A stretch of DNA of 64,000 bases from Nocardia huaxiensis (GTDB taxonomy: Bacteria > Actinomycetota > Actinomycetes > Mycobacteriales > Mycobacteriaceae): NCBI RefSeq assembly GCF_013744875.1, contig NZ_CP059399.1:7006001-7070000 (forward strand), read 5' to 3'. The notes beneath the pieces are model-generated. The model saw nothing but the letters and a program-made list of their open reading frames with translations, was not told the DNA's origin and made no database searches. The translations under genes and the position numbers were made by a program. Positions 27,427 through 53,497 of this stretch are shown piece after piece. Every line of letters starts with the position of its first letter. The first letter of the stretch is position 1.

Positions 27427-27451
27427 CCCCCGAAGACCAGGAGCAGCAACC

Positions 27452-29529: not shown

Positions 29530-29532
29530 ACC

Positions 29533-31094: not shown

Positions 31095-31188
31095 CCGGAT
31101 TCACAGCAGGAAAGGCCACTCGGGCATATACGGTGATTGGGCCGGTACCGGGATCGGTACCGGCCCAATCGGTTTCCCCGAGGAGGGA

Positions 31189-31563
31189 TCAGCTCGGGGA
31201 GTCGAGGCCCGCGCGGGCTGCGAGGAGGGCGCGGGAGTGGGTGGTGTCGGAGTGTTGGATGAGGCCGGCGGCCAGGAGGTAGGCGGCGGCCATGCGGGTG
31301 GCCGAGAGTTGGAGGGTGGACAGGGTGGTGGTGAGTTCTGTTGCCTTGGCGGCGAATCCGGTGCGCAATTGGGCCGAGGAGGGGAACGCGCCGAAGCCGG
31401 ACGGGGTGGCCGCCGCGGTGACGTGCGCGATCTGCGGGTCCAGGGCGTCCGCGAATCGCAGGAAGTTCGCGGCGCACTCGCGTGCGCACGCGACATCCAT
31501 ACGGAAGGTCCCGCCCAGCGCCTGCTGGTACAGCCTTTCGGCTGATTCCTCCCCCGCTTCCAC
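31189..31563 (-). CDS. Small helical protein, ESX/EspC-like size
   Basis: A 124-residue helical protein from the GTG at 31563, with GGATGGAG upstream. The frame continues to 31707 but the N-terminal extension looks non-coding. Helices run through MDVACARECAANFLRFADAL and AKATELTTTLSTLQLSATRM. The size and all-helix character recall type VII-associated EspC/WXG-type proteins, but there is no WXG motif and no secretion genes are near. Function unknown. Confidence 0.55.
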   Translation of the reverse strand: MEAGEESAERLYQQALGGTFRMDVACARECAANFLRFADALDPQIAHVTAAATPSGFGAFPSSAQLRTGFAAKATELTTTLSTLQLSATRMAAAYLLAAGLIQHSDTTHSRALLAARAGLDSPS

Positions 31564-31863
31564 GATCGAACTCCATCCGCTCGTTGTGAAATACGTTTGG
31601 CACCCGCAATTTCGCGTACGGGACACCCTGCGTTCGAGAGAAATGCAAATGTTCGAGAAGAAGCGAGGTGCAGGGCGGGCGTGCCGCGCCAGTCGACCAC
31701 GCGGCACGCCGGGCGGGGCGCCCCGTTGCGCCCGCCGTCTTGTGGCGGGCGACGTCTAACGGTTCGGGCGAGCTATTGGTCGGATAGCCCGGCCCGAGTT
31801 GACGTCACCGCTGACGATCAATGACTCGGTGGCAATGCATCAATTGTGTCAATGCATTTGGAA
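31564..31863. other. AT-richer intergenic stretch with short repeats
   Basis: About 300 bases without a convincing gene. It holds a GC-rich part (31690-31760) and then an AT-rich part with the octamer CAATGCAT twice (about 31834 and 31850), which also forms an imperfect inverted pair because ATGCAT is self-complementary. The lower GC sets this block apart from its neighbours. Confidence 0.45.
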
Positions 31864-32307
31864 TCATTGTTCTGGTAAACGGCGACGGCCTCCGGCCACG
31901 TCGAATACGAGATCAGTGTAGCCGTCGACGAGTTCGGCGAGATGGTACCAGTGTTTATGGGTATTATCGCTGGCCGCGCCCTCATGGTCTATCACCTGAT
32001 TGGCTTCGACCCAGCTCCGGGCCATGCGATCCACAACGGCCCCCAGGCTTTCGGTGTGCAACGCAGCCCCGTTGCGATGCTGCGGCAGTTCCTGTCCCAC
32101 CCAGTCGTTGATATCGTCGACGAGTTCACTCCGGCGGCAATCGATCTCGGAAACCAGCATGGGATCCCGTACCTGGGCGCGGCGTTCGTGCAACTCCGCG
32201 AGCGCGTGCGCCGAGCGCAGCAGGACTCGATCTTGAAATCGCCTGCCCTGGAAGGCACAGAGCAATTGGGGAGCCGTGGGGAGTCCACCCGCTATCGATG
32301 TGGTCAT
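31864..32307 (-). CDS. DUF4254-like protein
   Basis: A 147-residue protein from the ATG at 32307 (MTTSIAGGLPTAPQLLCAFQ); an ATG at 32331 gives 155 residues. It shows the actinobacterial DUF4254 pattern: HALAELHERR, then CRRSELVDDINDWVGQELP, HTESLGAVVDRMARSWVEAN and the ending LAELVDGYTDLVFDVAGGRRRLP. Function unknown. Divergent from an XRE regulator across about 180 AT-rich bases that contain a perfect palindrome. Confidence 0.7.
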   Translation of the reverse strand: MTTSIAGGLPTAPQLLCAFQGRRFQDRVLLRSAHALAELHERRAQVRDPMLVSEIDCRRSELVDDINDWVGQELPQHRNGAALHTESLGAVVDRMARSWVEANQVIDHEGAASDNTHKHWYHLAELVDGYTDLVFDVAGGRRRLPEQ

Positions 32308-32437
32308 CTCGACTCCCCCGCCACGCCCCACAACATCACTAATCGCACCAACATGATTGGTCTCCGGATTCAGCTATACCGCTCATCGGATCGGTTGTTC
32401 ACGAATAGGCTAGCTGGATCATGCTCTTACAAATGCA

Positions 32438-32457
32438 AGAACGCAATACTGCGTTCT
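32438..32457. promoter_or_regulatory. Palindromic operator candidate
   Basis: AGAACGCA-ATAC-TGCGTTCT is a perfect 8-bp inverted repeat, 28 bases before the XRE start and in the gap shared with the divergent DUF4254-like gene. It is likely a regulator site, perhaps for the XRE protein itself. Confidence 0.6.
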
Positions 32458-32485
32458 AGGTAGTGCGCAAGGCGAAAGGGTTGTC

Positions 32486-33346
32486 ATGGCTGGGAAGCGC
32501 ACCGTGCTTACCGTCCGTTTGCGCAGACTCGCGGCAATGCTGCACGAGATGCGCGAGACCGCGGGTCTCAGCAAAGAGGTGGTCAGCAGCAAGACCGGTA
32601 TCAACGTCACCACGCTGTACCGCATCGAAACCGCTCAGGCCAGGCCACAGCGCCGCACGCTGACCGCGATGCTGGACCTCTACAAGATCGGCGAACCACA
32701 GCGTTCAGATGCCTTGCAGTTGCTGGTGGACGCGCTCAAGCCCGGCATGGCGCGCTCGTTCGAGGACGCCGTCTCCGAGGTGTACGGCGCCTACATCAAC
32801 TTCGAAGCCGAGGCGCTCTCGGCGCGGTTCTTCCAATCCACCTACATCCCGGGCCTGCTACAGACCTCCGCCTACGCCGACGCCGTCTACGACACCACCA
32901 TGCCCAAGATCTCGGAACAGGTGCGGGAACAGCGAATTCGCGCCCGCATTGAGCGTTCGCGGGTACTCACCAAGGACGATCCGCTGGAACTGTGGGTGGT
33001 GCTCGACGAGGCCGTCATCCGGCGGCTGGTCGGCGGGCCGGCCGTCATGCGCGAACAGTTCGACCAGCTCGTCATGCACACCGAGAAGCGCAATGTGATC
33101 CTGCAGATCCTGCCCTTCGACGCCGGCGCACACCCCGGGATGCTGGGATCCTTCACCCTGCTGGACTTTCCCGACCCCGCCGACCCGGAGCTGGTGTACG
33201 TGGAGGGCATCGCCAGCGACGAACTCATCGAGGGCCACCCCGAGGTCCGCCGCTACGGGGTGATGTTCGATCAGTTGCGGGCCATGGCGCTGAGCCCGCG
33301 CGACTCGCTGAACATGATCCAGCAGACCATGATGACGCTCGGCTGA
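32486..33346 (+). CDS. XRE-family regulator with DUF5753 domain (no DUF397 partner)
   Basis: A 286-residue protein. The helix-turn-helix lies at about residues 15-65 (METMRETAGLS-like: HEMRETAGLSKEVVSSKTGI) and the DUF5753 domain starts near 100 with STYIPGLLQTSAYADAV. Unlike the regulator at 22148 it has no adjacent DUF397 gene. It lies about 175 bases upstream of the nonribosomal peptide genes and is transcribed in the same direction, so it is a candidate controller of that cluster. Confidence 0.9.
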   Translation: MAGKRTVLTVRLRRLAAMLHEMRETAGLSKEVVSSKTGINVTTLYRIETAQARPQRRTLTAMLDLYKIGEPQRSDALQLLVDALKPGMARSFEDAVSEVYGAYINFEAEALSARFFQSTYIPGLLQTSAYADAVYDTTMPKISEQVREQRIRARIERSRVLTKDDPLELWVVLDEAVIRRLVGGPAVMREQFDQLVMHTEKRNVILQILPFDAGAHPGMLGSFTLLDFPDPADPELVYVEGIASDELIEGHPEVRRYGVMFDQLRAMALSPRDSLNMIQQTMMTLG

Positions 33347-33521: not shown

Positions 33522-33986
33522 ATGTGCAAGCAGCTCGAATCGCCGGTCGCCACCCTCGTTCCGCTGCGGGTGAGCGCGGAGTCTCCTGCACCGCACACCG
33601 ATCCCGCCGCCGTCGCGGTCACCGCCGGCAATGTCACGCTGACCTACGCCGAACTCGATCGCTGGTCGAATCGCCTGGCGCGCATGCTGCTCCGCCTCGG
33701 CGCGCACCCGGGCGCCCGCGTCGCGATCGCGGAGACCCCGCAGCTGGAGTCGATCGTGGCCCGCCTGGCCATTGCCAAGACCGGCGCCACCCCCGTTCCG
33801 TTCGCCACCGAAACCTCCTCTGCCCGAGTGGATTTCGGTGTCACCACGAAGGCCGGCCGGGATCGGGTCACCGATTCGAGCCGCTGGCTGGTGCTGGACG
33901 AGCGCGACACCCTCGTGCAGTACCTGACCGGCTCCGACGCGCCGCTCACCGACGCGGAGCTCCATCGGACGCGGATCGCTTCCTGA
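33522..33986 (+). CDS. Stand-alone N-terminal fragment of an NRPS adenylation domain
   Basis: A 154-residue protein from the ATG at 33522 with CGAGAGG upstream. It matches the first part of an NRPS A domain: [20 protein letters not shown] (core A1 region), then [16 protein letters not shown] (core A2), then [16 protein letters not shown]. It stops just where the next conserved block LIYTSGSTG (A3, ATP binding) would begin, so it cannot activate an amino acid alone. It ends 35 bases before the synthetase. It could be a remnant of a lost module or a small accessory protein. Confidence 0.8.
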
Positions 33987-34020
33987 CCCGTCCGAAATAC
34001 ACCAGCACGCAGGATGTTTC

Positions 34021-37000
34021 ATGGCTTTCAGCTCTGCCCTGTCCAGCTCTGCCCGGCCCGCATCCCCCGCGCTGCCACCCGAGGCCTTCGCGCTCTCCGC
34101 GGCGCAACGCGGCATCTGGTTCGCCCAGCACCTCGCCGGTGACACCCCGGTCTCCATAGCCCAGTACGTCGAACTCGCGGGGGCCGTCGATGTCGGCCTG
34201 CTCGCGGACGCGGCCCGCCGGGCCGGGCGCGAATTCGGCACCGGCTACCTCCGGTTGCTCGAGATCGACGAGCTGCCCTGGCAGGTGGTGGACACCAGCC
34301 TCGACGACACCATCGACACCATCGACCTGACCGGCGAGCCCGACCCCGAGGCCGCCGCACAGGCGTGGATGCGTGCGGAATACACTGCGCCCCTTGACAT
34401 GACGCGCGACCGGCTGTGCCAGGTCGCCATGTTGAAGGTGGGGCCGGACCGATGGTACTGGTACTCGCGCTTCCATCACATTCTGCTCGACGGCGTCGGC
34501 GCGCTCACCATGCTGCAGCGCACCGGCGAGCTGTACAACGCCGCCATCGCCGGACGGGAAGCGCCCGCCGGGAAGGCCGAGGCGCTGCAGAAGATCGTGG
34601 AAGCCGATGTGGCGTACCGGGATTCGGACAAGCTGGCCGCCGATCGCGAGTACTGGAAAGAGCATCTGGCCGGGATGGCCGAGCCCGCCTGCCTGGGCAA
34701 GCGCACCGGAGCCGTGGACGCGCACCCCCGCCTGCTGAGCGGGGCGCTGCCCGATAGCACGGCGGCCCTGCTGGATTCGCTCACCGCCGACCTCTCGACC
34801 AGCGCCGCACCCGTGGTGGTGGCGGCCTTCGCCGCGTTCGTGGGCGCCATGACCGGCAGCGGGGAGATCGTGCTGAGCCTGCCGGTGTCCGGGCGGACCA
34901 CCGCGGCGCTGCGGCGCTCGGGCGGCATGGTGGCCAATGTGGTGCCGCTGCGCCTGCGGCCGACGCCGACCGCCACCGTGGGGGATCTGATCAAGGCCAC
35001 CCAGGGGGAACTGACCGCGGCGCTGCGGCGGCAGCGGTACCGGCAGGAGGACATCTTCCGCGACCTCGGCTGGGCCATGGACGAGGTGGCCGGATTCGGG
35101 CCGACGGTGAACCTCATGCTGGCCGACACCCGCATCCGGCTCGGCGGGGTGACCGGGCAGCTCAATGTGCTGACCTCGGGGTTGATCGACGATCTGTTCG
35201 TGAACGTGTACCCGGGAGTGGGCGGGGAGCGCACCCACATCGACTTCCAGGCGAACCCGAACCGGTACGGGGAGAGCGAGCTGGCGTCACTGCACGCGCG
35301 GTTCCTGGACTTCCTGCACCGGTTCCTCGCGGACGGGGCCGCCACGCGACTGTCCTCCGTCGTCGCGGTATCGGAACATGAACGCGTACAGCTGGTTCCG
35401 GCGCACGGACGGCAGCGGACGCGGGCGCGCACGCTGGCCGAGATCCTCAACGGCGGGGCCGAGCGGGAACCCTCGGCCATCGGCATGCGGGTCGACGGGA
35501 CCGTCTTCACCTATCGCGAGATCACCGACTACTGCAATCGACTGGCGCGGGTACTGATCGACGCCGGAGCGGGACCCGAACGGGCCGTGGCGATCTCGAT
35601 TCCGCGGTCGGCGGAGTCGGTGCTGGCCATGTGGGCGGTCGCACAGACCGGGGCGGCGTTCGTGCCCATCGACCCCGGGTATCCGGCGGATCGGATCGAG
35701 CACATGATCCGGGACAGCGGCGTGGTGGCCGGAGTGACGGTGGCCGGATCGCGCGCGGCGCTGCCCGACCGGGTGCGCTGGCTGACCCTCGACGAGGCCG
35801 CGACCGAAAAGGCCATGGCGGCAGCGTCTTCCGCGCCCGTGACCGATGCGGACCGGCCTGCGCCGACGCGGGTGGATCAACTCGCCTACCTCATCTACAC
35901 CTCCGGGTCGACCGGGCTGCCCAAGGGCGTCGGCGTCACCCATCGCGGGCTCGCCAACCTGGTGACCGGATCCGGTGCGGCCTTCGGTGTCGGCTCCGAT
36001 GCCGTTGTGGCGCACGCGGTTTCCCCGAGCTTCGATATCTCGGTGGAGGAACTGCTGGTCGCGTTCGCGGTCGGCGCGACGGTGGCCGTGGTGCCGCCCT
36101 CGGCCTACGCGGGCGAAGACCTGGCGCGGGTGCTGCGCACCCTCGAAGTCACGCACCTGAATGTGACTCCCGCCGTTGCCGGTTCGCTCGAACCCGCCAC
36201 ACTCCCCCGGCTGCGCACCGTCGTGGTCGGTGGCGACGCCTGCCCACCGGAACTGCCCGTCCGGTGGGCCGGGCGCTGCGTCCTCAATGGATACGGGCCG
36301 ACCGAGACCACGGTCACCGCGACCCTCAGCTCACCCCTGTCGCCGAACGAACCCATCACCATCGGGCGGCCCTCGCGCGGGACCGGCGCGGTCGTGCTCG
36401 ACCCGTGGTTGCGGCCGGTCCCGCCCGGTGTCACGGGCGAGCTGTACCTGTTCGGCGATGGCGTGGCGCGCGGCTACCACCAGCGCATCGGGCTCACCGC
36501 ACAGCGATTCGTGGCCAATCCCTTCGAACCCGGCACCCGCATGTACCGCACCGGAGACCTGGTGCGCTGGCGGCAGCGCGGGGTGCGCATGGACCTCGAG
36601 TTCGCGGGCCGCGACGACACTCAGGTGAAGGTGCGCGGCTTCCGCATCGAACTCGGCGAGGTGGACGCGGCCGTGGCGCGGCATCCCGGCGTCGAGGTCG
36701 CCATCACCGTGGGCGCGACCACCCCGGCCGGGGCCACCGCGCTCGTGTCCTATGTACTCGCCTCCCCGGACCTGCCGGTCGATCCCGAGGCCGTGAAAAT
36801 TACGGTCGGACAGTTGCTTCCGGCGCACATGGTGCCCGCCGCGGTCATGGTCCTGGACACCCTGCCCCTGACCCCCGCCGGCAAGGTGGACCGGCGCGCG
36901 CTGCCCGAACCCGAATTCGGCGCGCGCGCTCTCACCGGCCGCGCCGCCGCCACCGAACGCGAACGCATCCTGGCCCGCCTCTTCGAAGAGGTCCTCGGCC

Positions 37001-40000
37001 AGGAATCCGTCGGCGCGGACGACAACTTCTTCGCCCTCGGCGGCGACAGCATCGTCGCCATCCAGCTGGTCGCCCGCGCCAAAACCGCCGGCCTGTCCCT
37101 GCGCGCCCGAGACGTGTTCGAGCACAAGACCGTTGCCGCCCTGGCCGCCATCGCAGGCGACGCCTCCGCGCCCGTGGTCCACGAACTGCCCGGCGGCGCG
37201 ATCGGCCCGACCACCCTCACCCCCATCGTGCACGCCATGCTCGAGCACGACGGCGACAGCTGGAAACGCTTCGCCCAGGCCGTCCTCATCCCCCTGCCCG
37301 CCGACATCGACCGCACCGGCCTGACCACCGCGGTGCAAACCGTCCTCGACCGCCACGATCTCCTGCGCAGCACGCTGACCCGCCCCGCCGGGCACACACC
37401 GGCACAGCACGAGAACCGCTCCGGTACACGGGCAACACGCACCACACCGCGCGACCAGCGCGCACCGCACGGCACGGCCACCACCTCTGGAAGCAATGGT
37501 GCGACACGAACAGTCGACCGCGCCGCCATGCCCGAATGGGAGTGGATGGTTGGCGTGCCGGGGTCGGTGCGCGCCACCGACCTCATCGAAATCGTGGACG
37601 TCGCGGCGAACGGCGATGCCGAAGTCGAATTGCAGCGGGCCGCGGACCGGCTCGATCCCACTGCGGGCGTCGTGGCGCGGTTCGTGCTCCTCGAGCGTGC
37701 GGGGACCGGGCCGCTGCTGTGGGTGGTGCTGCATCATCTCGTCACCGATGGGGTGAGCTGGCGGATTCTGCTGCCGGATCTGGCTGCCGCGTGGGCGGGG
37801 GCTCCGCTCGCACCGGTCGGGACCTCGTTCCGGCGGTGGGCGCATGGGCAGGCCGAGCAGGCTGCCGCGCGCGGGGGCGAATTGGCGCTGTGGCAGCGGA
37901 TTCTCGAGACGCCGGATCCGCCGCTGGATACTCGGCGGCTCGATCCCAAGGTCGATACGGCGGCCACCATGGCACGGGTCGAGACCGTCATCGATCCCGA
38001 AACTACGTCGGCGGCTTTGGAACTCGTGCCGGAGCGGTTCCATTGCGGGGCCGATGACGCATTGCTCACCGCGCTCGCACTGGCTGCGAGCCGGTGGCGG
38101 GAGCAGCAGGGGAAACGCGCGGGGCAACGGACTCTCCTCACGCTCGAAGGGCATGGGCGCGAGGAAGCGATCCTGCCGGGGGCCGATATCTCACGGACCA
38201 TCGGGTGGTTCACCAGTGTGTATCCGGTGGGACTGGATCTGACCGGGATCGATATCGCCGATGCCTTCCGGGGTGGACCGGCAGCGGGAGCCGCGCTCAA
38301 GGCTGTGAAGGAGCAGCTGCGGGCGATTCCGGACAAGGGTGTCGGGTACGGCATGCTGCGGTATCTGAACGCCGAAACCGCTCCGGCGCTGGCGAATACG
38401 CCTGCGCCGCAGTTGAGCTTCAACTATCTGGGGCGGACCGGGATGTCCGGAGCGCCCGCGGACGGCGGCGAAACCGTGTGGTTGCCGAGCCGGTTCACCG
38501 CCACCCAGGGCGATGACGCGCCGCTGGAAGCCGTCATCGATATCAATGCGCTGCACACCGATGCGGGGCTCGAGGTCACGTGGGCGTACGCGTCGCGGCT
38601 GCTCGGGGAGCGGCAGGTGCGGGAGTTCGCGGGGCTGTGGGCGCAGGCATTGGCCGGGATCACCGAGCATGCGCGGCGGGCGGGGGCCGGTGGCCATACG
38701 CCCTCGGACTTCCCGCTGGTGAGCGTCGCGCAGGCCCAGATCGACGGGTGGGAGCGGGACTACCCGGGGCTCAGCGAGGTGTGGCCGCTGTCGCCCTTGC
38801 AGTACGGGCTGCTGTTCCACGCGCGATACGACACCGACACCTCCGACGAGTACACGGTGCAGACGCGGCTGTCCCTCGCGGGGCGGGTGGACGCGGTCAA
38901 ACTGCGCACAGCCGCGCGAGAGCTGCTGGCACGGCATGATGTGCTGCGCGTTGCGTTCACCGAAACACCGGACGGGCCGGTGCAATTGGTCGTCGACAGT
39001 AGCGAATTGCCTTGGCACGAGGTCGATCTCACCGGAATCGCGGAGCCCGGCGAGCGGCAGCGGGAACTGGAGCGGCTCGTCGCGGTCGACGCGGGGACGC
39101 GGTTCGATCTGGCGCGGCCGCCACTGCTGCGGTTCCTGCTGGTGCGCACCGAGGCCGAGGCGTACACGCTGCTCATGACCAATCACCATCTGGTGCTGGA
39201 TGGTTGGTCGACGCCGCTCGTGGTGCGGGAACTGCTGGCCGGGTACCTCGGCGCGGTCACCGGGCAGGCGATTCCGGCCACGGCGGTGCCCTCGTACCGG
39301 GAATTCCTGGGCTGGCTGGCCGAACAGGACGATGCCGCCTCCATGGCGGCGTGGACCGAGGCGCTGGCCGGGGTCGATACGCCGACCCGCGCCGTGCCGA
39401 GTCTCGCGGGCATCGAATCCACCGAATCCGGCATGGTGACCGTCGATTTCAGCGCCGACTCGCTGGCCAAGCTGGAGAGCACCGTGCGCGCGGCCGGAGC
39501 CACCGTGAACACCGGCGTGCAGGCCGCCTGGGCGCTGCTGCTGGCCATGCTCACCGGGCGCACCGATGTGGTGTTCGGCGGCACCGTCTCCGGGCGGCCG
39601 CCACAGCTGGCCGGTGTGGAGGACATGGTCGGGCTGTTCATCAACACGCTGCCGGTGCGGGTGCGGCTCGACCCCGCGGAACGGGTGTCGGATCTGCTGG
39701 CGCGGGTGCAGAGCGAACAAGCCAGGCTGCTCGACCATCAGCATGTGGGGCTGGCGGCCATCCATCAGGCCGTCGGACTGCCCGAACTGTTCGACACCCT
39801 CACCGTTTTCGAGTCGTACCCGATCGACCGCGAGACCCTGTCACAGGCCCTCGACATCGCCGGGATGCGGATTCTCGACGTGTCCGGCACCGATGCCACG
39901 CCATATCCGTTGAACCTCATGGTGATTCCGCAGCGCGGCGCGGACGGCAGTGAGAGCCTGCAGATCTCGATCAAGTTCATGGCAGACCAGCTGCCCGAGA

Positions 40001-43000
40001 CCGGGGCGCGGCGACTGCTCGAACGATTCGTGTTCCTGCTCAACCAGATTGCCGTCAATCCCGGGCGGCGCACGGCACAACTACAGCACTGTGAGCCCGC
40101 CGAACGCCGGGCCCTGCTGCCGGTGCGCGGCGGCGATCCGGTGCCCATGCGCACCCTGCCCGATATTCTCGCCGCCGGCGCCCGGGTGAATCCGGACGGG
40201 ATCGCCATCGTGTCCGGCACGCTCACCATGACCTACCGTGACCTCGACGCCTGGTCCAACCGGTTCGCGCGGCTGCTGCTCGGCCGGGGCGTGGGCCGCG
40301 AGGTATTCGTGGTGCTGGCACTGACGCGCTCGGTGGAATCCGTGGTGGCCGTGTGGGCGCTGGCCAAGACCGGGGCGGCGTTCCTGCCGCTGGACCCGAA
40401 CTATCCGGTGGAACGCATCGAGCACATTCTCACCGACTCCCGCGCGCCCATCGGCGTCACCGTGTGCGCGGTCGGCGAAACCCTGCCGGGCACCATCGAC
40501 TGGCTGCTGCTCGACGACCTGTCCACCATCCGCCGCGTCATGACCGTGTCCGACGCGCCCATCACCGATGCCGAACGCGGCGGGCCCATCATGCTCGGGC
40601 AGACCGCGTACCTCATCTACACCTCGGGGTCCACCGGCAAGCCGAAGGCCGTGCTGGTCAGCCATCGCGGCCTGTCGAATATCGTTGCCTCGCAACAGCG
40701 TCTGCTGGATCTGGATCACACGGCCAGCGCATTGCAGGTGGCCTCGCCCAGCTTCGACGCCTCCGTGCACGAACTGCTCATGGCGCACGCCCTCGGCGGG
40801 CGGCTGGTGGTGTCGCCACCGGATGTGTACGGCGGCAGCGAACTGGAGGAACTGCTGCGCGAACAGCAGGTCACCCACGCCACCATCACACCGTCGGTGC
40901 TGGCCACCATGAACCCGAACGGACTGCCGGATCTGCGCAATCTCGCGGTCGCCGGTGAAGCCGCGGGCACCGAACTGGTGGCCGCCTGGTCGGCCGAGCG
41001 GCGCATGGTGAACCTGTACGGGCCAACGGAATTCAGCATCTGGGCGACCGGGCCGGGCGAACTGCGCGCCGGGGAACCCATCACCATCGGCGGGCCCATC
41101 GACGGGGCCGGGGCCATGGTGCTCGACACCTGGCTGCGGCCGGTGCCGCTCGGCGTCTCCGGCGAACTGTATCTGGCCGGACCGGCCTTGGCGCGCGGAT
41201 ACTTCAACCGGTACTCGCTCACCGCCGCCCGGTTCATCGCCAACCCCTACGGTGCGCCCGGCACCCGCATGTACCGCACCGGAGACATGGTGCGCTGGGT
41301 CGAGACGAAGAACGCCGAAGGCGTGCGGCTGGAACTGGAATACCTGGGGCGCAGCGACTTCCAGGTCAAGATCCGGGGTCTGCGCATCGAACTCGGCGAG
41401 ATCGACGCGGTGCTGTCGGCCGACGAGCAGGTGGAGTACGCGGCCACCATCGGCGCACCCGGACCCGGCGGACAGACCGTGCTGGTGTCGTATGTGGTCG
41501 GGCTGCGCGGGCAGCGGCTCGACACCGAGGGACTGCGCAATCGGGTCGCCTCGGCACTGCCCGGCTACATGGTGCCCAGCTACATCATCGAACTCGACGA
41601 CGTGCCGCTCACCCCGGTCGGCAAACTCGACCGGAACGCCCTGCCCGCACCGGATTTCGCGAGCCTGAACGAACGCTACCTGGCTCCGCGCACCCCCGTG
41701 GAGACGGCGGTGGCGCGCGTGTTCGCCGACGTGCTCGGGACCGACCGGGTCAGCATCGACCGGTCCTTCTTCGAACTGGGCGGCAACTCGCTCAGCGCCA
41801 CACGCGTGGTGGCACGGGTGAATTCGGCGCTCGGGGCGACCGTGGCGCTGCGGGATCTGTTCGACGCGCCCACCGTGGCACAGCTGTCGGCGCGGGTCGT
41901 GCCCGCCGGAGACCTGCCCGGACGGCCGGCGCTGGCGGCCCGCATCCGGCCCGACCGGGTGCCCTTGTCGCCCGCGCAGCAACGCATGTGGGTGCTCAAC
42001 CGGATGGACACCGGATCGGCGGCCTACAACATCATGGCGGCGCTGCGGCTCACCGGCGAACTCGACCGGGATGCCCTGCGCCAGGCCGTGATCGACGTGG
42101 TGACACGGCACGAGACGCTGCGCACCATCTACCCCGCCGATGCCGACGGGCCGCGACAGGTCGTGCTCAGCGCCGACGCCGGAGCACCCGAACTGCGCTA
42201 TGCCGACACCGAAGACGGTGCGGCACTGCGGCATCGGATCGAAGAGCTGACCGCCACCGGATTCGATCTCACCCGGGAAGCGCCCCTGCGCGCCGGACTG
42301 TTCCGGATCGACGAGCGGACGCATGTGGTGGTGCTGGTGGTCCATCACATCAGCGCCGACGGCACCTCCATGGCGCCGCTGGCCACCGACCTCATGACCG
42401 CCTATGTGGCGCGCAGCACCGGCAGCGCGCCCGGGTGGGAACCGCTGCGGGTGCAGTACGCCGACTACGCACTGTGGCATCGGGAACTGCTGGGCGCGGA
42501 ACAAGACGCCGAATCCGTTGCCGCCCAGCAGGTCCGGTACTGGAGCGAGAAACTCGCCCACACGCCCGACGCGCTGGAACTGCCCGCCGACCGGCCACGA
42601 CCGGCGGTGCAGAGCATGCGCAGCGTCGACGTGCCGTTCACCGTGGACGCCGAAACACACAGTGCGCTGGTCGAATTGGCACAGCAGACCGACACCAGCC
42701 TGTTCATGGTGGTGCACGCCGCGCTCGCGGTGCTGCTGTCGCGGCTGGCGGGCACACCCGACGTGCTGGTCGGCACCGCCATCGCCGGACGCGGGGACGC
42801 CGCGCTCGATGATCTGGTCGGCATGTTCGTCAATACCCTGGCACTGCGCACACCGGTCGATCCCAGCAGCGATTTCCGCAGCTTCCTGGCGGGCGTGCGC
42901 ACCACCGATCTGGATGCCTTCGGACATGCCGACGTGCCGTTCGAACGCCTGGTCCAGGTGCTCGATCCGGCGCGGTCGACCGCACACCATCCGCTGTTCC

Positions 43001-46000
43001 AGGTGTCGCTGTCGCTGCAGAACTTCACCCCGCCCGTGCTGGAACTGCCCGGACTGCGCGTGGAAGTCGAACCGGTGCAACGCGATACCTCACAGTTCGA
43101 CCTCGGTCTCGAACTGCGCGAGCCGCTGCCGGGCGGGGAACCCACCGGGCTCGACGGCACACTCACCTACGCCACCGACCTGTTCGACGCGGGCACCGCG
43201 GCACTGCTGCTCACCCGCTGGCGGCGCATCCTCGCCGCCGTCACCGCGAATCCCGATGTGCGACTGTCGGATATCGACCTGCTCGACGAGAGCGAACGCG
43301 GCGCCCTGGTGCCGCTGCGCGGACCCCGGCACTCCGGGAACATGACGCTGCCCTACCTGCTGTCCACCACGGCACGGGTGCGGCCGGGACATCCGGCCAT
43401 CGTCGCCGACGGGCGGGTCATCACCTACGCGGAACTCGAAGCCGCCTCCGACCGGCTGGCCGATCGCCTCACCGCACACGGCGCCCGCCCGGAAACAGTT
43501 GTCGCCCTCGCCCTCTCGCGCGGTGCAGACCTGCTCATCGCGATCTGGGCCACGGCCAAATCCGGTGCGGCCTTCCTGCCCATCGACCCGCGCCACCCGC
43601 TGGACCGCATCGACCACATGCTCACCGACTCCGGCGCGATCCTGGGCCTGACCAACGCCGAACACCGGCCCCTGCTGCCCGATACGATCCGCTGGCTGCC
43701 GCCCGGCCGCGACGACGGGCCGCACACCGGCGAGCACCGCCGCGTGTCCCGTCCGGGCCACCCGCAACCCCCGCAGCGGCCCGGCGAACACCGAGCCATG
43801 CCGCGACCGGGTGAACGGCAGCCCATGTCACGCCCGCACGAGCGACAGCCCGCGGCCTTCGGGGCCACCCGGAAGCTGCCACCGCCGGTGGTGCGGCGCG
43901 AACCGCGGCCGGAGCATCCGGCGTGGCTGATCTACACCTCCGGATCGACCGGGACGCCCAAGGGTGTCGCGGTGTCCCATCGCGGTCTCGCGGATCTGGT
44001 GACCGCGCAGCGGCAGGTGCTGCAACTCGACGGATACTCGCGCGTATTGCAGGTGGCCTCACCCAGTTTCGATGCCTCCGCCTTCGAGGCGCTCATGGCG
44101 TTCGGGGCCGGCGGGACCGCCGTCGTCGCGCCGCCGGACGTGTTCGGCGGTGACGCGCTGTCGGATCTCATCGCGGCGCATCGGGTCACGCACATGGTGA
44201 TCACGCCGTCCGCGCTGGCGACCATGGATCCCGCCCGGGTGTCCAGCGTGCGCATGCTGGCGGTGGCCGGTGAGGCCATCGGACCCGAGCTGGTGCAGCG
44301 GTGGGCGCAGGGGCGCATGCTCATGAACCTCTACGGTCCGACCGAATTCACCATCTGGGCAACGGTTTCCGAGCCACTGCGGGCCGAACAGCCGGTCACC
44401 ATCGGGCGGCCGATCCGAGGCGGGGCCACCCTGGTGCTGGACGACCGGCTGCGGCCGGTGCCCATGGGCGTGGCCGGTGAGCTGTACCTGGCCGGGCCCG
44501 CGCTGGCGCGCGGCTATCACAACCGGTCCGCGCTCACGGCGGGACGGTTCACCGCCAATCCGTACGGTGCGCCGGGTGAGCGCATGTACCGCACCGGCGA
44601 CCTGGTGCGGTGGACCGGCGGGCTCGGCGCGCCGAAGCTGGAATACCTGGGGCGCACCGACTTCCAGGTGAAGGTACGCGGCCAGCGCATCGAACTCGGC
44701 GAGATCGACGCCGTGCTGGCCCGCGCCGAGAACGTGGAATTCGCGGTGACACTGGGCGTTGCGGGACCGGGCGGCGGGACCGCGCTGGCGGCCTACCTGC
44801 TGCCGGAACCCGGTGCGCACCTAGATGTCTCGGCCGTCCGCGCGCACGCCGCCGACCGGCTGCCCGGCTACATGGTGCCCTCGGCCTTCGTGGTCCTCGA
44901 CGCCATCCCGCTCAATGCCGTCGGCAAGCTCGACCGCAAGGCCCTGCCCGCACCGGTGTTCGAGGCCGAAACCGAATACCGCGCGCCCAGCACACCCACC
45001 GAAACGGTGCTCGCCGGGATCGTGGCGGAACTGCTGGGCCGCAAGCGGATCGGCGTGCACGACTCGTTCTTCGCCCTCGGCGGCGACAGCATCCTCGCCA
45101 TCCAGCTGGTGTCCCGGGCGCGGCTGCGCGGCCTCGAACTCACCCCGCTGCAGATCTTCGAGCATCGCACCGTCGCGGCCCTGGCCGCCCTGGCCGACGA
45201 GGCCGGGGAGGCGATCGTCCTGGAGGAACTCCCCGGCGGCGGCGTGGGCGATATTCCGCTCACCCCGATCGTGCAGTGGATGACCGAACGCGGCGGCGAC
45301 CACGGCAGATTCGCGCAGACCGCCGTGCTCGAGATGCCCGCCGGCATCACCCGCGAACAGGTTGTCGCCACCGTCACCGCGGTCGTCGACAAACACGACA
45401 TGCTGCGCGCCCGCCTGCACCGCGAAGGCGACACCTGGCGACTGCACACCCGCGAGCCCGGCTCCGTCGACGTGGACGCACTGCTGCACCGCATCGAGTT
45501 CAATGCCGCGGGCAGCGACGAGCTGCGCCAGTACGCGGCCACCGAACTCGACGCCGCCATGGATCGACTCGACCCGGCCGCGGGCACCGTCCTGCAACTG
45601 GTGTGGCTCGACCCGGTCGAACCGGCGCTGCGCACCGGAATGACCCAGCGCGTGAGCACAACCCAATTCCCCACCACGACACAGCGTCTCGGCGCAGCCC
45701 ACACCGGCACACTGCGACGCGTCGGCGCGGGCGAGACCGGCACCATGCAGCGCGTCGCGCTGGACGAGCGCACCCTCACCGATCGGATGGGTGCGGCCGA
45801 ACGGCTCGGTTCGGGGCCGCGTTCAGGGGTCGGAACACACTCGGGGACCGCACAGCGGACCGGGCGGCGCACCGGGCGATTGATCCTGGTGGCGCACCAT
45901 CTCGTGATAGATGGTGTGTCCTGGCGGATTCTGGTGCCGGATCTGATCGCGGCCTGGGCGCAGCTGTCGGGCGGAGCCACCCCGACGCTGCCGGATACCG

Positions 46001-47775
46001 GCACGTCCATGCGGCGGTGGGCGCACGCCCTCCAGGAGGAGGCGCACAGCGACAAGCGGGTGGGCGAACTGGAGTACTGGCGGGCACTGGCGCAGACGCC
46101 GGATCCGCTGATCGGGCCGCGCGAACTGGATCCGGCCGTGGATCGGGTGGGCACGGTGCGGGCCGTGGACGTGGAGGTGTCCGAGACCGTCACGAACGCG
46201 CTGCTGACCACCCTGCCCGGATTGTTCGACGGGACAGTCGAAGACGCGCTGCTGGCCGCGCTCGCGCTGGCCGTGTCGCATTGGCGCGCACCGGATCGGG
46301 GCGAGGAACCCGACTCCGTGCTCATCCGGTTGGAAGGACACGGGCGGCAGCAGGAAATCGTTCCGGGAGCCGACCTTTCGCGCACGCTCGGCTGGTTCAC
46401 CACGCTGTACCCGGTGCGACTGGATCTGCCCGCGCTCGATCTCGACGACGCGCTCACCGGCGGGCCCGCCATGGGTGAGGCCATTCGAGCCGTGAAGCAC
46501 CAGCTGCTCGACATCCCGGACAAGGGCATCGGATTCGGGCTGCTGCGGTACCTCAACGCCGACACCGCGCGCCAATTCCCGCGAAAGTTGCCGGGGCGCA
46601 TCGGATTCAACTATCTCGGCCGCTACGCCACCGCCGACATCCCCGCCGGGCTGGAGGGGCTCGGCTGGCTGCCCACCGAGGATCTCGGCGACCTGCACGC
46701 GGGCGAACACCCGGAGGTGCCGGTCAATGCCGAGATCGAGATCAATGCGGTGGTCGCGGGTGACCGGCTGCAGGCCACCTTCACCTATCCCGAAACGCTG
46801 CTGGCGCGACAGGATGTCGACGCGCTGGCGCAGCTGTGGATCGAAGCCCTCATGGCCGCAGCCGAATTCGCCGACACCCCGGACGCCCGGGAGGCCGCGG
46901 CCGCCGAAGCCGCGCACATGGCGGAACTGGAGCGGACCCGCGCCGAGGCGGAACTCGCCGCAGCACAACCGGATTCCACCCCCGGCCTGGGTCTGGACGT
47001 GGTGCTGCCGATCCGGCTCGACGGACAGGAACCCGCCCTGTTCTGCATCCACCCGTCCTCCGGCATCGCCTGGACCTATCTGGGCCTGGCCGAACAGCTG
47101 AACCCCGGCCGGCCCATCTACGGCCTGCAGGCCCCGGACCTGTCCGGCGAACCGCACGCCCGCAGCATCGACGACTTCGCCGAGCGCTACGTGCACGAAA
47201 TCCGCAGGCTGCAACCGGAAGGCCCGTACCACCTGCTCGGCTGGTCCTTCGGCGGGCTCATCGCGCACGCCGTCGCCGCCAAGCTGCGGGAGCAGGGCGC
47301 GGAACTGGGCACCCTGGCACTGCTCGACCCGGACAGCACCGACCTCGACGGCTCCAGCGTCGAAAAGCTCACGGCCGGTTCGTTCATCGCCACCTTCGGC
47401 GCGGTGTTCGGCATCTCCGACGTGCCGCCCGACGCCACCGCCGAAGAGGCCGCCGCGCTGATTCGCGAACGCATGGGCGGAGTCTCGCTGGTCGACGCGG
47501 AAACGCTGGAACGGATGGCGGCCTCCTACAACGCCTCCGCCGACACCCGCACCGGCTACCAGCGACCCGTATTCCACGGGGACGCACTGTATTTCCACGC
47601 CACCATCCAGGGCGCGGAAGACCCGGCGATCTTCGGTGCGGGCCCGTGGCGGGCCTGGATCACCGGACAGATCACCAACTACGACATCGAGGCCACGCAC
47701 GAGGGGCTCACGGCGCCGCACGCTCTGGCGGAGATAGCTCGCATCCTCGACGAACACCTGGGAGGAACGCAGTGA
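34021..47775 (+). CDS. Trimodular nonribosomal peptide synthetase, C-A-T-E/C-A-T/C-A-T-E-TE
   Basis: A 4584-residue synthetase. Module 1: condensation domain (HHILLDG, from residue 152), adenylation (LIYTSGSTG at 624), carrier (LGGDS, Ser1010), epimerase (HHLVTDG at 1238, then EGHGRE, FNYLGR). Module 2: C (HHLVLDG at 1722), A (2198), carrier (LGGNS, Ser2590), no epimerase. Module 3: C (HHISADG at 2775), A (3303), carrier (Ser3690), epimerase (HHLVIDG at 3959). A thioesterase (GWSFGG, Ser4409) ends it. A leading C domain before the first A domain suggests a starter acyl group. Hand-read specificity codes: A1 D-I-E-N-V-G-G-V-T-K, A2 D-A-H-T-A-A-L-I-W-K, A3 D-A-F-V-A-A-L-I-W-K. Low-complexity insertions sit in E1 (about 1121-1168), A3 (about 3228-3297) and E2 (about 3874-3953). 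No MbtH-like gene is nearby. The expected product is an acylated D-L-D tripeptide. Confidence 0.95.
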
Positions 47776-48788
47776 CCACAGAACGGGGCGCGGACGGCGT
47801 GATCGTCGAGGGCGTCGAGAAATCATTCGGAACCGTGAAAGCCTTGCGCGGCATCGACTTCAAGGCCGCGCCGGGCGAAGTGCTCGGCATCCTCGGCCCC
47901 AACGGCGCAGGGAAGACGACCACCGTCAACATCCTGTCCACCCTCATCGCACCCGACGCCGGGCGCGCGCGGGTGGCCGGGCACGACGTGGTCTCCGACG
48001 CTGCGGCGGTGCGGCGCAGCATCATGCTGACCGGACAGTTCGCCGCCCTCGACGACGCGCTCAGCGGCTACGAGAACCTGGTCATGTTCGGCCGGCTCAT
48101 GGGGCTGCGCAAACGCGCCGCCAAGGCCCGCGCCGACGAACTCATCGGCGAATTCGACCTCACCGCCGCCGCCGGCCGCCGCGTCGGCACCTACTCCGGC
48201 GGCATGCGGCGGCGCATCGACATCGCCTGCGGGCTGGTGGTGCGACCGGAGGTGGTGTTCCTCGACGAACCCACCACCGGACTGGATCCCCGCAGCCGCC
48301 AAGGGGTGTGGGATCTGGTCGGCGGATTCCGCAAGCACGGCATCACCACCCTGCTCACCACCCAGTACCTCGAAGAGGCCGACGCGCTCTGCGACCGCAT
48401 CATCGTCATCGACCACGGCGTGGTCATCGCCGACGGCACCGCCGACGAACTCAAATCCCGCACCGGCGGCAGCTACTGCGAGGTGGTGCCGCTGCGCACC
48501 GCCGACCTGCCCGCCATCGCCCTCGCACTCGGGGATCTGCTGCCCGCCACGACACGCGAAGTGCTGACCCCCGATTCGGACCGCATCGCCATCCCGGCCC
48601 CCGAGGGCGCGAAAACCCTCGCCGAGGCCCTGCGCCGATTGGACAGCGCCGGAATGGAATTGGTGGACATCGCGCTGCGCCGCCCCTCCCTCGACGACGT
48701 ATTCCTTTCCCTCACCGGACATATGACGGAGAAACCGGAACCCAACGGGCACCCCAGCGACGCCCAGCTGCGCAAGGCCCAGTCGTGA
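47772..48788 (+). CDS. DrrA-like ABC exporter ATPase
   Basis: A 338-residue ATPase from a GTG at 47772 that overlaps the synthetase stop by four bases. Walker A is GPNGAGKTT, the signature is YSGGMRRR, Walker B is [13 protein letters not shown], and the C-terminal extension after residue 230 is typical of DrrA/CcmA-type drug exporters. Translational coupling to the synthetase strongly suggests export of, or self-protection from, its product. Confidence 0.93.
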
Positions 48789-49636
48789 CCGCCGCGACCG
48801 CCACCACCGACGCGTGGCTCACCAGCATCCGCGCCACACCCTCCACACTGCGGCAGTGGTGGGTGCTCACCGTGCGACTCATCGTGCCGTCGGTGACCAC
48901 CGGCGAAATCCTGACCGCGATCCTGGCCCCGGCCACCTTCACGATCAGCTTCTACATTCCGCTCAATCGCGTGATGACCTTCTCCGGCACCGGATTCAGC
49001 AGCTACGCGCAGTTCATGGCGCCCATCGTCATCCTGCAGGCCGCCGCCTTCACCGCCATCTCCGCCGCCTTCCGCGCCGCCACCGACATGGTGTCCGGTC
49101 TGGACCGGCGCTTCGACGCCATGCCCATGCACCCGCTGGTGCCGACCGCGGCGCGCATGTCCGCCAATATCTTCCGCGCCGCCGTGGCCATGGTGTCGGC
49201 GCTCATCTCGGCGCACGTCATCGGCTTCCGGTTCTACGGCGGCTGGGCGCACACCCTCGGCTTCGTCGGACTGGGCATGCTCATCGCGTTCGCCTTCAAC
49301 CTCGGCGCCGACGTGATCGGCACCGTCACCAAGAGCCCCGAAGCCACCACCCAGATGCTGGTGCTGCCGCCGCTCATCCTCGGCATGCTCTCCACCGGGC
49401 TCTCGCCGGTCAAGCAATTCCCGCAGTGGGTACAGCCTTTCGTGCGCAATCAGCCCGTCTCGCAATTCGCCGACGGCCTGCGCGCGCTCGGCGGCGACAC
49501 CGTGCTGTTCAACGGCAAACCCAGCCAGGTCGCCGAAGTGACCTGGCCGCTCATGACACCGCCGCTGCTGTGGGCCGCCGCCATCATCGTCGTCTCGCTG
49601 TACTTCACCGTCCGGCTGAACATGAAGAGGACGTGA
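48785..49636 (+). CDS. ABC-2 type exporter permease (DrrB-like)
   Basis: A 283-residue ABC-2 permease from a GTG at 48785 that overlaps the ATPase stop by four bases. It has a cytoplasmic N-terminus and about six helices, including the stretch GFVGLGMLIAFAFNLGADVI, with PPLILGMLSTGLSPVKQFP in the region typical of DrrB-type proteins. It pairs with the next gene to form the membrane channel. Confidence 0.9.
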   Translation: MTAATATTDAWLTSIRATPSTLRQWWVLTVRLIVPSVTTGEILTAILAPATFTISFYIPLNRVMTFSGTGFSSYAQFMAPIVILQAAAFTAISAAFRAATDMVSGLDRRFDAMPMHPLVPTAARMSANIFRAAVAMVSALISAHVIGFRFYGGWAHTLGFVGLGMLIAFAFNLGADVIGTVTKSPEATTQMLVLPPLILGMLSTGLSPVKQFPQWVQPFVRNQPVSQFADGLRALGGDTVLFNGKPSQVAEVTWPLMTPPLLWAAAIIVVSLYFTVRLNMKRT

Positions 49637-49637
49637 C

Positions 49638-50462
49638 ATGACCGCCATCGACCAGCGCGTCGACACCGCCGACACCATCGACGCCCCCGAGCACTCACCG
49701 CTGGCCCTGGTGCGCCACACCTGGATTCAAACCATGCGGCTGCTGCTGCGGTGGGTCCGCGACCCCATCACCCTGCTCGAAACCCTCATCGTGCCGTGCC
49801 TGCTGCTGCTCATGCTCGACATCGTGGTGGGCGGGGCCATCGAACGCTTCACCCACCGCAACGCGCTCTACGGGTCGGTGCCCATGGTGGCGCTGGTGGG
49901 CGCGTTGTCGGGGACCGTGGCCTCCGGCGTCATGCTCGGGCGCGAACGCGACGCCGGACTGCTGGCCCGATTCTGGGTGCTGCCCGTGCACCGGGCCTCC
50001 GGGCTGTCGGCGCGCATTCTCGCCGAGGGCGTGCGCATCTTCGGCGGCACCATCGTCATCGTGCTGTTCGCCTCGCTGCTCGGCTTCCGGTTCCAGCAGG
50101 GCGTGCTCGCGGCGGCCGGATTCCTGGTGGTGCCGGTGCTGTTCGGGCTCGCCTTCGCCACGCTCGTCACCGCCATCGCCGTGTTCACCGCCAAATCCAC
50201 GCTGGTCGAGGCCATTGCCATCGTGACCTCGCTGCTCATGTTCTTCAGCACCGGATTCGTTCCGCTGGAGGCGTATCCGGAGTGGATTCAGCCCGTCGTG
50301 CGCTGGCAACCCATGTCGGTCACGGTCGACACCATGCGGGCGCTGTCGGAGGAAGGCGCGCTCGCCGGGCCGCTCACCTGGACCATCGTCTGGTGTGTGG
50401 GCCTGATCGCGCTGTTCGCGGTGCCCGCCGCCTACGGCTACAAACGGGCCAGCCGCCGCTGA
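49638..50462 (+). CDS. ABC-2 type exporter permease (DrrC-like)
   Basis: A 274-residue ABC-2 permease with six predicted helices (ETLIVPCLLLLMLDIVVGGA early; FFSTGFVPLEAYPEWIQPVV late, the same conserved position as in the previous gene). It starts one base after the previous stop. Together with the two preceding genes it forms a DrrABC-like exporter and closes the peptide locus. Confidence 0.9.
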   Translation: MTAIDQRVDTADTIDAPEHSPLALVRHTWIQTMRLLLRWVRDPITLLETLIVPCLLLLMLDIVVGGAIERFTHRNALYGSVPMVALVGALSGTVASGVMLGRERDAGLLARFWVLPVHRASGLSARILAEGVRIFGGTIVIVLFASLLGFRFQQGVLAAAGFLVVPVLFGLAFATLVTAIAVFTAKSTLVEAIAIVTSLLMFFSTGFVPLEAYPEWIQPVVRWQPMSVTVDTMRALSEEGALAGPLTWTIVWCVGLIALFAVPAAYGYKRASRR

Positions 50463-50595: not shown

Positions 50596-51096
50596 GTGCT
50601 CGAACCCAACACCCCCGTCGCGCCCCACCCCGATATCGCTCATCTCGCCCCGCTGCTGGGCACCTGGCGCGGCTCCGGGAGTGGGGAGTATCCGACCATC
50701 GACTCCTTCGATTACCTGGAGGAAGTGCACTTCGGACACGTCGGCCGCCCGTTCCTCACCTATCGGCAGCGCACCCGCTCCGCCGACGGCAGCCGGCCCA
50801 TGCACGCCGAGACCGGATACCTACGCGCCATCGGCGGCGACCGGGTCGAACTGATCCTGGCCCACCCGACCGGCATCACCGAGATCTGCGAGGGCAAGCT
50901 CGTCACCGAAAACGACGGGCTGCGAATCGAACTGGACTCCACCTCGATCGGCCGCAGCAGCACCGCCAAGTCGGTGACCGCGCTGGGCCGCACCTTCGAG
51001 CTCGCCGGGAACACACTCGGCTACACGCTGCGCATGGCCGCGGTGGAACAACCGCTGCAGCATCATCTGGCGGCCACCCTGCACCGGGAGAACTGA
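50596..51096 (+). CDS. Nitrobindin-like heme-binding beta-barrel protein
   Basis: A 166-residue protein from a GTG at 50596. The family hallmark GTWRGSGSGEYPTID sits near residues 22-36. Strand-rich blocks follow, and a late His-containing segment (PLQHHLAATLHRE) supplies the expected proximal His ligand. Nitrobindins bind ferric heme and can isomerise peroxynitrite. It lies about 130 bases after the exporter genes and is likely a housekeeping gene, not part of the peptide cluster. Confidence 0.88.
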   Translation: MLEPNTPVAPHPDIAHLAPLLGTWRGSGSGEYPTIDSFDYLEEVHFGHVGRPFLTYRQRTRSADGSRPMHAETGYLRAIGGDRVELILAHPTGITEICEGKLVTENDGLRIELDSTSIGRSSTAKSVTALGRTFELAGNTLGYTLRMAAVEQPLQHHLAATLHREN

Positions 51097-51306
51097 CCCG
51101 GAAAATCGCATCGCATTTCCCTCCGGTGACCTGCATCACTTTCCTAACGGACGTGTGCTGAGTCACTCGAGAGGGTTGCCTGGGGCATGGGAGCCGGATT
51201 ACCGTTCCTTGCGTTGGCAAACATTCAGCCAACCCTCATGAGCACCGGCCATCCGAAACCGACCGTTCGGATCTCCTGAACTCATCCCCACACAAGGGAG
51301 TGCGAT

Positions 51307-51495
51307 ATGAAGCGTTCGGCCCTTTTGCTAGTCACCACCGCCGGCATGATCCTCGCCGGCGCCGGCGCCACCGAAATGCTGGGAGACCACTCCTCCGGCG
51401 TTCCCACCGTGAAAACCCTGGCGCAGCAACGCTTCGTCGCCCAAGACATCCACGGGGAGATCACCCAGGCCGCCTGCCTCCGCAGCGACCGCTGA
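51307..51495 (+). CDS. Tiny secreted peptide of unknown function
   Basis: A 62-residue protein with a clean AAGGGAG ribosome site and a classic signal peptide (KRSALLLVTTAGMILAGAGA). The short mature part holds a single cysteine near the end (TQAACLRSDR). No family is recognised. A GC-rich palindromic block follows it. Confidence 0.6.
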   Translation: MKRSALLLVTTAGMILAGAGATEMLGDHSSGVPTVKTLAQQRFVAQDIHGEITQAACLRSDR

Positions 51496-51504
51496 GCTGT
51501 GCTT

Positions 51505-51565
51505 TTCCCAGGGGCTCCGCCCCCGGACCCCCGGAATCGGGGGCGCTGCCCCCGGCCCCCGTTAC
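51505..51565. terminator. GC-rich palindromic element between convergent genes
   Basis: GGGGCTCCGCCCCCGGACCC and the following CCCCCGGAATCGGGGG and GGGGGCGCTGCCCCC form overlapping hairpins. It lies between the convergent small-peptide and PBP genes and shares its word with the elements near 13348-13420 and 58955-59000, so it is probably a bidirectional terminator type of this genome. Confidence 0.55.
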
Positions 51566-51602
51566 GGGGCGGGGTTTATCGCGGGAATTGTGGTGATGGT
51601 GC

Positions 51603-53399: not shown

Positions 53400-53497
53400 C
53401 GGCACAGATGCTAGAGCCAACTGTCAGCAAACAGGCGCGACACACTGTAGGAGAACAGATTTCGCGCTTACATCACATATCGGACAGCAGTCGCGAA

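Follow-up and report, generated by a model that had tools for sequence, protein, structure and literature searches.

The 64,000-nucleotide stretch of Nocardia huaxiensis DNA analysed here (assembly GCF_013744875.1, contig NZ_CP059399.1, positions 7,006,001 to 7,070,000; referred to below as the window) carries, at positions 33522 to 50462, a gene for a trimodular non-ribosomal peptide synthetase (NRPS), three DrrABC-like exporter genes and, in front of them, a small gene encoding a free-standing fragment of an adenylation domain, designated here mini-A. The locus probably makes an N-acyl tripeptide and exports it through DrrABC, and for the window itself a medium-chain acyl-D-L-D tripeptide is a well-supported prediction. 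The most interesting gene of the interval is mini-A. Because of its near-strict co-occurrence with the synthetase, the purifying selection acting on it and its own set of conserved residues, it is tentatively regarded as a non-catalytic partner of the synthetase. The initial annotation placed the start of the interval at 33522, which is the mini-A start codon and lies outside the synthetase, and left this gene unmentioned.

Starter condensation domain and acyl chain

The synthetase gene (34021..47775, on the forward strand, as are all window features described below) encodes a protein of 4584 aa, whose domain order reads C-A-T-E-C-A-T-C-A-T-E-TE. Pfam finds in it five Condensation-family, three AMP-binding and three PP-binding stretches and one Thioesterase stretch; two of the five Condensation-type stretches are epimerization (E) domains, as revealed by their position and by the motifs EGHGR and GWFTxxYP, which are present in both. 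The HHxxxDG motif occurs in C1, C2, C3, E1 and E2. The order C-A-T-E, C-A-T, C-A-T-E-TE given in the initial annotation is thus confirmed by Pfam and motifs.

In a comparison of the first domain, C1 (34063..35385, motif HHILLDG), with all Protein Data Bank (PDB) sequences, the RzmA starter domain RzmA-Cs came out on top (7C1K, 7C1H and 7C1P, with 7C1K the best match at 242 bits), followed by CDA C1 (173 bits), ObiF1 (163), EntF (155) and surfactin synthetase (54). C1 is the first domain of the line and is nearer to starter (Cs) than to elongating C domains in this comparison, so its assignment to the starter type is well supported. Its catalytic HHxxxDG motif is kept in 32 of 32 loci. According to the passages of PMC7804268 drawn on here, acyl-CoA is the direct donor for RzmA-Cs, in whose cluster genes for an acyl carrier protein (ACP) or an acyl ligase are missing. 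In the same passages, chain length is governed by Arg148 of RzmA, eight positions after the second His of HHxxxDG: with Arg the chain is C2, stepwise shortening of the residue to Ala and Gly gives C8 or C10, and HolA, with Ala149, takes C8.

The residue equivalent to this gate is Ala in the window and in 102 of 103 C1-led rows (103 of the 107 rows were counted, the four omitted being pieces cut downstream of C1), which corresponds to 87 of 88 distinct C1 sequences. The sole exception is Val in a dimodular relative (L122). Since Ala occupies the gate almost without exception, a medium-length acyl chain, of about C8, is predicted. C1 thus shares with the starter C domains of RzmA and HolA (rhizomide, holrhizin) its kinship among PDB sequences, and with HolA the Ala gate, while those systems differ from the present locus in peptide and organism, and mini-A is not mentioned in the same passages of PMC7804268.

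Adenylation and epimerization domains

The first module continues with A1 (35422..36918), T1 (36934..37158, motif LGGDS) and E1 (37189..38700, motifs intact). C2 (38758..40125) follows E1 and would be expected to take a D donor; after A2 (40138..41655) and T2 (41674..41904, LGGNS), C3 (41938..43308) stands directly behind T2, and an L donor is expected there. A3 (43330..44964), T3 (44977..45201, LGGDS), E2 (45223..46890, motifs intact in the window) and TE (46993..47772, GWSFGG) complete the protein.

The adenylation pocket residues, at positions defined for GrsA, were extracted with a pattern script and not through a structure-based call. Read in this way, the code of A1 is DIENVGGVT, and the pattern DIEN[VI]GG[VI]T is found in 74 of 84 distinct synthetases with E domains (E-type), most of the other ten being DIED or partly unread. 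The Glu at presumed position 239 would point to a basic substrate; residue 1 of the peptide is therefore probably basic, as a weak prediction. The A3 code, DAFVAALIW, recurs in 23 of 35 E-type synthetases (four are unread), and the A2 code, DAHTAALIW in the window, differs at several positions across relatives. Residue prediction for A2 and A3 was given up, the pocket positions being script-picked.

The His motif of E1 is kept in 32 of 32 loci. For E2, a first motif scan found HHxxxDG in 22 of the 32; in one locus that it left unread (L084), all five motifs are present by motif count. Some departures count against a uniform product: E2 has DA or DS instead of DG in five of the 32 loci, it has lost both the His motif and EGHGR in four (L094, L118, L136 and L137), and the His motif of C3 is missing in L090. 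Given this decay of E2, the D-L-D prediction applies to the window, while some relatives would depart from it. The acylated D-L-D tripeptide proposed in the initial annotation, which named degenerate E or starter C domains as one finding that would speak against it, is nevertheless supported for the window, where the E1, E2 and C1 motifs are intact and C1 is nearest to a lipoinitiating starter domain among PDB sequences.

In L094 and L118 the A3 code is altered as well (DALMAGLVV), which suggests a different third residue. The E domains of the window also contain low-complexity inserts rich in Arg, Thr and Gly, one of 47 aa in E1 (37393-37533, residues 1125-1171) and one of 80 aa in E2 (45625-45864, residues 3869-3948), the latter with a 33-bp tandem repeat inside, and A3 carries a Pro/Arg-rich insert of 15 aa. 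All three inserts are gapped in at least seven of nine orthologues compared.

Two other readings of the product were weighed. It is unlikely that the product is something other than a linear acyl tripeptide, with TE cyclising it or joining two or three units. Type I TE domains can cyclise or oligomerise, as in the enterobactin and gramicidin S synthetases, and the nucleophile could come from residue 1 if its side chain is basic; however, an N-acyl cap would block head-to-tail joining, and no sequence feature calls for oligomers. Still less likely is a C1 that does not acylate or uses another donor, such as an aryl group. The resemblance of C1 to the EntF C domain would fit such a role, as would the match of NRPS residues 24-1044 to the NCBIfam EntF model, which is below the cut-off, and the result of a scan of the neighbouring genes at 26362-33346 and 50596-54367, where no acyl ligase or ACP gene was found. 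RzmA-Cs is much nearer than EntF, though, and its cluster likewise has neither gene in the passages of PMC7804268 cited above; the invariant catalytic motif and the almost invariant Ala gate also argue for acylation.

Mini-A is a truncated adenylation domain

The first gene of the locus, mini-A (33522..33986, with an ATG start codon at 33522), encodes 154 aa, which match the Pfam AMP-binding model at positions 7-87 of 384 only. The protein ends before the P-loop of core motif A3 and has neither the substrate pocket nor motifs A4-A10. Because everything from this P-loop onward is missing, mini-A is predicted to be incapable of adenylating alone. AMP-binding was the only match in the Pfam scan; the MbtH family (PF03621) was not matched, and the identification of mini-A as an MbtH protein was rejected. 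A sequencing error or a broken NRPS start was also rejected, as mini-A has its own start and stop, lies at a variable distance from the synthetase and recurs before it in 73 of 79 loci.

The segment DPxYPxERIxHMLxDS is shortened in 20 of the 20 fragments displayed; the fragment of Aldersonia (L079) and one Antrihabitans copy (L072) retain a few more of its residues. This shared shortening makes a single ancient internal deletion likely. Among the three A domains of the synthetase, A2 is the most similar to mini-A: an HMM built from 77 fragments ranked A2 first in each of 35 E-type synthetases, with median scores of 129 bits for A2, 95 for A1 and 73 for A3. In trimodular paralogues without E domains (L059, L070, L075 and L113), A1 or A3 scores best, which speaks against a simple origin from A2. 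A tree of mini-A and the starts of A domains has weak deep nodes and, with midpoint rooting, places one fragment (FRAG_L073) outside the others, so that the A2 origin rests on the HMM scores and not on the tree.

Mini-A is predicted to fold. Its AlphaFold2 model (31 aligned sequences) has a mean pLDDT of 78 and a pTM of 0.71; within residues 31-150 the pLDDT is 79-94 by block, except for residues 91-100 (67), and residues 1-22 are below 50. All 50 Foldseek matches listed for this model are structures with NRPS A domains, the top one among them having a TM-score of 0.66 by query length and an E-value of 7e-9. Seven positions besides the start Met (Leu40, Gly64, Thr109, Arg128, Leu131, Tyr134 and Leu135) are kept in at least 80% of fragments and occur in about 30% or fewer of A domains. 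Four of them, Arg128, Leu131, Tyr134 and Leu135, sit on one helix of the model (128-136), which is a candidate contact face.

Distribution and selection

The protein search with mini-A returned 97 clusters; the named ones belong to Nocardia, except for one labelled Streptomyces gardneri, and several are unlabelled. In the genome scan, the best 80 of 196 confirmed stretches gave 79 loci, 76 from Nocardia and the others from Antrihabitans stalactiti, A. cavernicola and Aldersonia kunmingensis. In 73 of the 79, a C1-led NRPS lies 3' of mini-A on the same strand, with 49-382 nt between the mini-A stop and the start of C1 homology. In the six others, mini-A either lies at a contig end (L037) or is a solo copy (L039, L041, L043, L049 and L054). 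Flags of the type '1 TGA' or '1 TAA' in the genome scans were taken as matches overrunning the mini-A stop, as seen in orthologue loci such as L096.

Among 148 Nocardia genomes, mini-A and C1 were found together in 106 (about 72%), neither in 38, mini-A only in two and C1 only in two; these are raw counts, ignoring shared ancestry, and rest on the best 26 (mini-A) or best 11 (C1) first-look candidates scored per genome. The thresholds (best E < 1e-40 for mini-A and < 1e-165 for C1) were chosen after the values were known and sit in the gaps from 5e-34 to 1e-41 and from 1e-160 to 2e-171, respectively. A family-level scan of 251 genomes, with 15 candidates scored in each, found only 20 with E <= 1e-32, of which 14 were already in the Nocardia set and six were others. 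Mini-A is therefore not shared by the family as a whole.

Nei-Gojobori dN/dS values of mini-A are 0.05-0.46, with a median of 0.32, in 21 species pairs sharing taxa. Over 14 of the same pairs the medians are 0.07 for the A2 N-terminus, 0.11 for C1 and 0.17 for E1. Solo copies give 0.28-0.45 in five pairs, two of which, involving L039, have saturated dS. By these ratios, mini-A is under purifying selection, weaker than that on the synthetase domains tested.

A solo mini-A between homologues of the DUF5753-regulator and nitrobindin genes, which border the locus in the window, was found in four species, N. vaccinii, N. jiangxiensis, N. macrotermitis and N. miyunensis. In these four solo loci (L041, which is on the contig of L112; L043; L049; L054), DrrB and DrrC are present in inverted orientation, and neither a synthetase gene nor an adjoining DrrA gene accompanies them. 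A mini-A-led synthetase was also found at another place in the genomes of N. vaccinii (L068), N. macrotermitis (L077) and N. miyunensis (L062). The solo mini-A of N. alni (L039) sits in a different setting.

Multiplied copies were observed as well. In Antrihabitans stalactiti (L072), three tandem copies of mini-A (2523-3870) precede one trimodular NRPS, a fourth (17232-17690) precedes a second NRPS directly downstream, and additional copies were found on further contigs. N. yamanashiensis, N. concava, N. terrae and N. inohanensis have, besides the main E-type synthetase, a second mini-A-led synthetase without E domains (L059, L065, L070 and L075). Its order is C-A-T-C-A-T-C-A-T-TE in L059, L070 and L075; L065 runs off the contig.

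Exporter and genomic neighbourhood

Downstream of the synthetase are genes for the ABC ATPase DrrA (47772..48788) and the ABC-2 permeases DrrB (48785..49636) and DrrC (49638..50462). The NRPS and DrrA genes overlap by four bases (GTGA), DrrA and DrrB also by four, and a 1-base gap separates DrrB from DrrC; these coordinates bear out the coupling noted in the initial annotation. DrrA matches TIGR01188 with 375.1 bits, above the NCBIfam cut-off of 312.45, and DrrC matches TIGR00025 with 149.5 bits, above the cut-off of 146.9; the best match of DrrB, also TIGR00025, is 133 bits and thus below the cut-off. An ATPase and two ABC-2 permeases encoded in a coupled operon are what the locus has in common with exporters of the daunorubicin resistance type; its DrrB stays below the model cut-offs.

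DrrA, DrrB and DrrC lie directly 3' of the NRPS gene in 27 of 29 full-length E-type loci with mini-A (L080-L099, L114-L118 and L136-L139, chosen for mini-A and long contigs and not at random), which is in line with the export of the product by DrrABC proposed earlier. In the other two, L136 and L137, there is no DrrABC within 4.5-5.3 kb downstream. L113, a trimodular paralogue that has no E domains, likewise combines mini-A with DrrABC. In the dimodular L122, mini-A is divergent and DrrABC is missing. Among 12 related NRPS loci that do not have mini-A, ten are without adjacent DrrB and DrrC, one (G072) has DrrABC and one (G053) has DrrB and DrrC.

The gene upstream of mini-A (32486..33346) encodes a regulator with HTH_31 and DUF5753 domains. 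A close homologue stands beside mini-A in seven of the 29 full E-type loci (L080-L083, L087, L099 and L114) and beside the four solo loci; in the fetched stretch of the other 22 no clear homologue was found, which suggests that the location of the cluster varies within the genus. The regulator may or may not control the locus. Further upstream, at 26362-30330, are genes resembling those of a 2-aminoethylphosphonate ABC transporter, with a match to NF011620 above its cut-off and best matches to PhnT and PhnV below it.

The initial annotation described the cluster as self-contained and without a nearby MbtH gene. The latter is supported by proxy: MbtH genes, two or three per genome, are present in 10 of 10 related genomes, in none of them near the locus, but either on a different contig or, where the contig is shared, at a distance of more than 0.9 Mb. 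As a description of the gene set, however, "self-contained" was incomplete, since the conserved mini-A gene belongs to the locus.

Proposed mechanism and the role of mini-A

The observed domain order, intact motifs, starter-domain kinship, gate residue, operon layout, conservation, co-occurrence and selection can be set into the following scheme, for which we infer the acyl length, the stereochemistry, the linear release and the export of the acyl tripeptide by DrrABC. C1 would join a medium-chain acyl group, of about C8 and taken from acyl-CoA, to residue 1 on T1, and E1 would convert this residue to the D form. C2 would add L-residue 2, C3 would add residue 3, and E2 would convert the latter to D; TE would then free the acyl-D-L-D tripeptide, and DrrABC would pump it out of the cell.

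MbtH-like proteins are small partner proteins of NRPSs. Mini-A, derived from an A domain like A2, may bind the synthetase in a similar manner and act in folding, assembly or initiation; the likeness is a proposed analogy only, mini-A being a piece of an A domain unrelated in sequence to MbtH. It is conceivable that an A2-like piece was duplicated before the split of Nocardia, Antrihabitans and Aldersonia, that an internal stretch and the entire catalytic part were then deleted, and that what was left turned into a partner. Slightly more tentative than the partner role itself is the idea that mini-A represents a new class of NRPS accessory protein, required by a starter-C-led synthetase for assembly or lipid initiation.

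A number of observations weigh against such a role. Five of the 79 loci have mini-A without an adjacent synthetase. A function tied strictly to a neighbouring NRPS is most strongly contradicted by these solo copies, which are the reason for considering the two explanations below. Of the two genomes with mini-A only, one (G007) is a fragmented assembly and the other (G059), which has one of the five solo copies, has no synthetase match above the threshold, while G047 and G072 have the synthetase without mini-A. No mini-A was found in the 3.3-4.3 kb upstream of 12 chosen related C1-led NRPS loci (L100-L111). The genome counts, as stated, disregard shared ancestry and depend on a set number of scored candidates, and mini-A evolves faster than the A2 N-terminus, C1 and E1, as a partly relaxed relic would.

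It is accordingly worth considering that mini-A is a relic of a partial A-domain duplication or a leader reading frame, without a role as a protein and kept for the effect of its translation or of its position on the next gene. This is rather unlikely, although the mini-A stop lies 49-382 nt before the start of C1 homology, its dN/dS exceeds that of the tested synthetase domains by a factor of about two to four and, in the N. vaccinii group, mini-A persists on its own where the window has the whole locus. Speaking against a reading frame without a protein role are a dN/dS below 0.5 in 21 of 21 pairs and in the solo copies too, the presence of mini-A in 106 of 108 genomes that have the synthetase, conserved residues of its own that are rare in A domains, and the three tandem copies of Antrihabitans stalactiti. 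Less probable again is that mini-A serves the exporter and not the synthetase. The four solo loci of the N. vaccinii group, which keep DrrB and DrrC beside mini-A, and the lack of adjacent DrrB and DrrC in most of the related loci without mini-A are consistent with this. But mini-A and the synthetase occur without DrrABC in L136, L137 and L122, DrrABC occurs without mini-A in L109, no Drr gene accompanies the N. alni solo copy within the listed stretch, and the lineages concerned are not independent. A partnership of mini-A with the synthetase is thus retained as the tentative interpretation.

Relation to known clusters

The initial annotation considered the cluster possibly undescribed, which is not supported. 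It is already known from genome surveys, and in the available passages neither of the two surveys concerned assigns a product. Männle 2020 (PMC7413640) reports from 75 of 101 Nocardia genomes a gene cluster family, GCF 5, whose trimodular NRPS has an E domain in its first and in its last module. It shares the architecture of the window NRPS, and its frequency compares with 106 of 148 genomes for C1 plus mini-A and 108 of 148 for C1; the main text mentions GCF 5 a single time, and the match to the present locus is by architecture and frequency. As far as the available text goes, the peptide could not be predicted there, a point that counts against the product chemistry proposed here, and Drr, ABC transporters, tripeptides, lipopeptides and AMP-binding are not mentioned.

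Line #27 of Komaki 2014 (PMC4035055), a three-module NRPS common to seven Nocardia strains and, in the passages available, with no predicted product, is probably, as we infer, the same locus. Among the open-licence papers listed by the literature searches there was no other description of a Nocardia acyl tripeptide, a trimodular NRPS with E domains, a Drr-linked NRPS or a truncated adenylation protein. PMC4282715 was rejected as a prior report, since its available text deals with fungal acyl tripeptides and cites Nocardia for thiazolyl peptides only.

The cluster, together with mini-A, is present in about 72% of the sampled Nocardia genomes, and PMC7413640 and PMC4035055, in the parts available, assign no product to it. 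For mass spectrometry, the Ala gate together with the intact E domains defines a concrete target, namely a C8-like acyl D-L-D tripeptide whose first residue is probably basic. If the role proposed for mini-A is true, it would be a form of NRPS helper not seen among the open-licence papers listed: part of a megasynthase domain that persists as a gene of its own next to nearly every copy of the synthetase.

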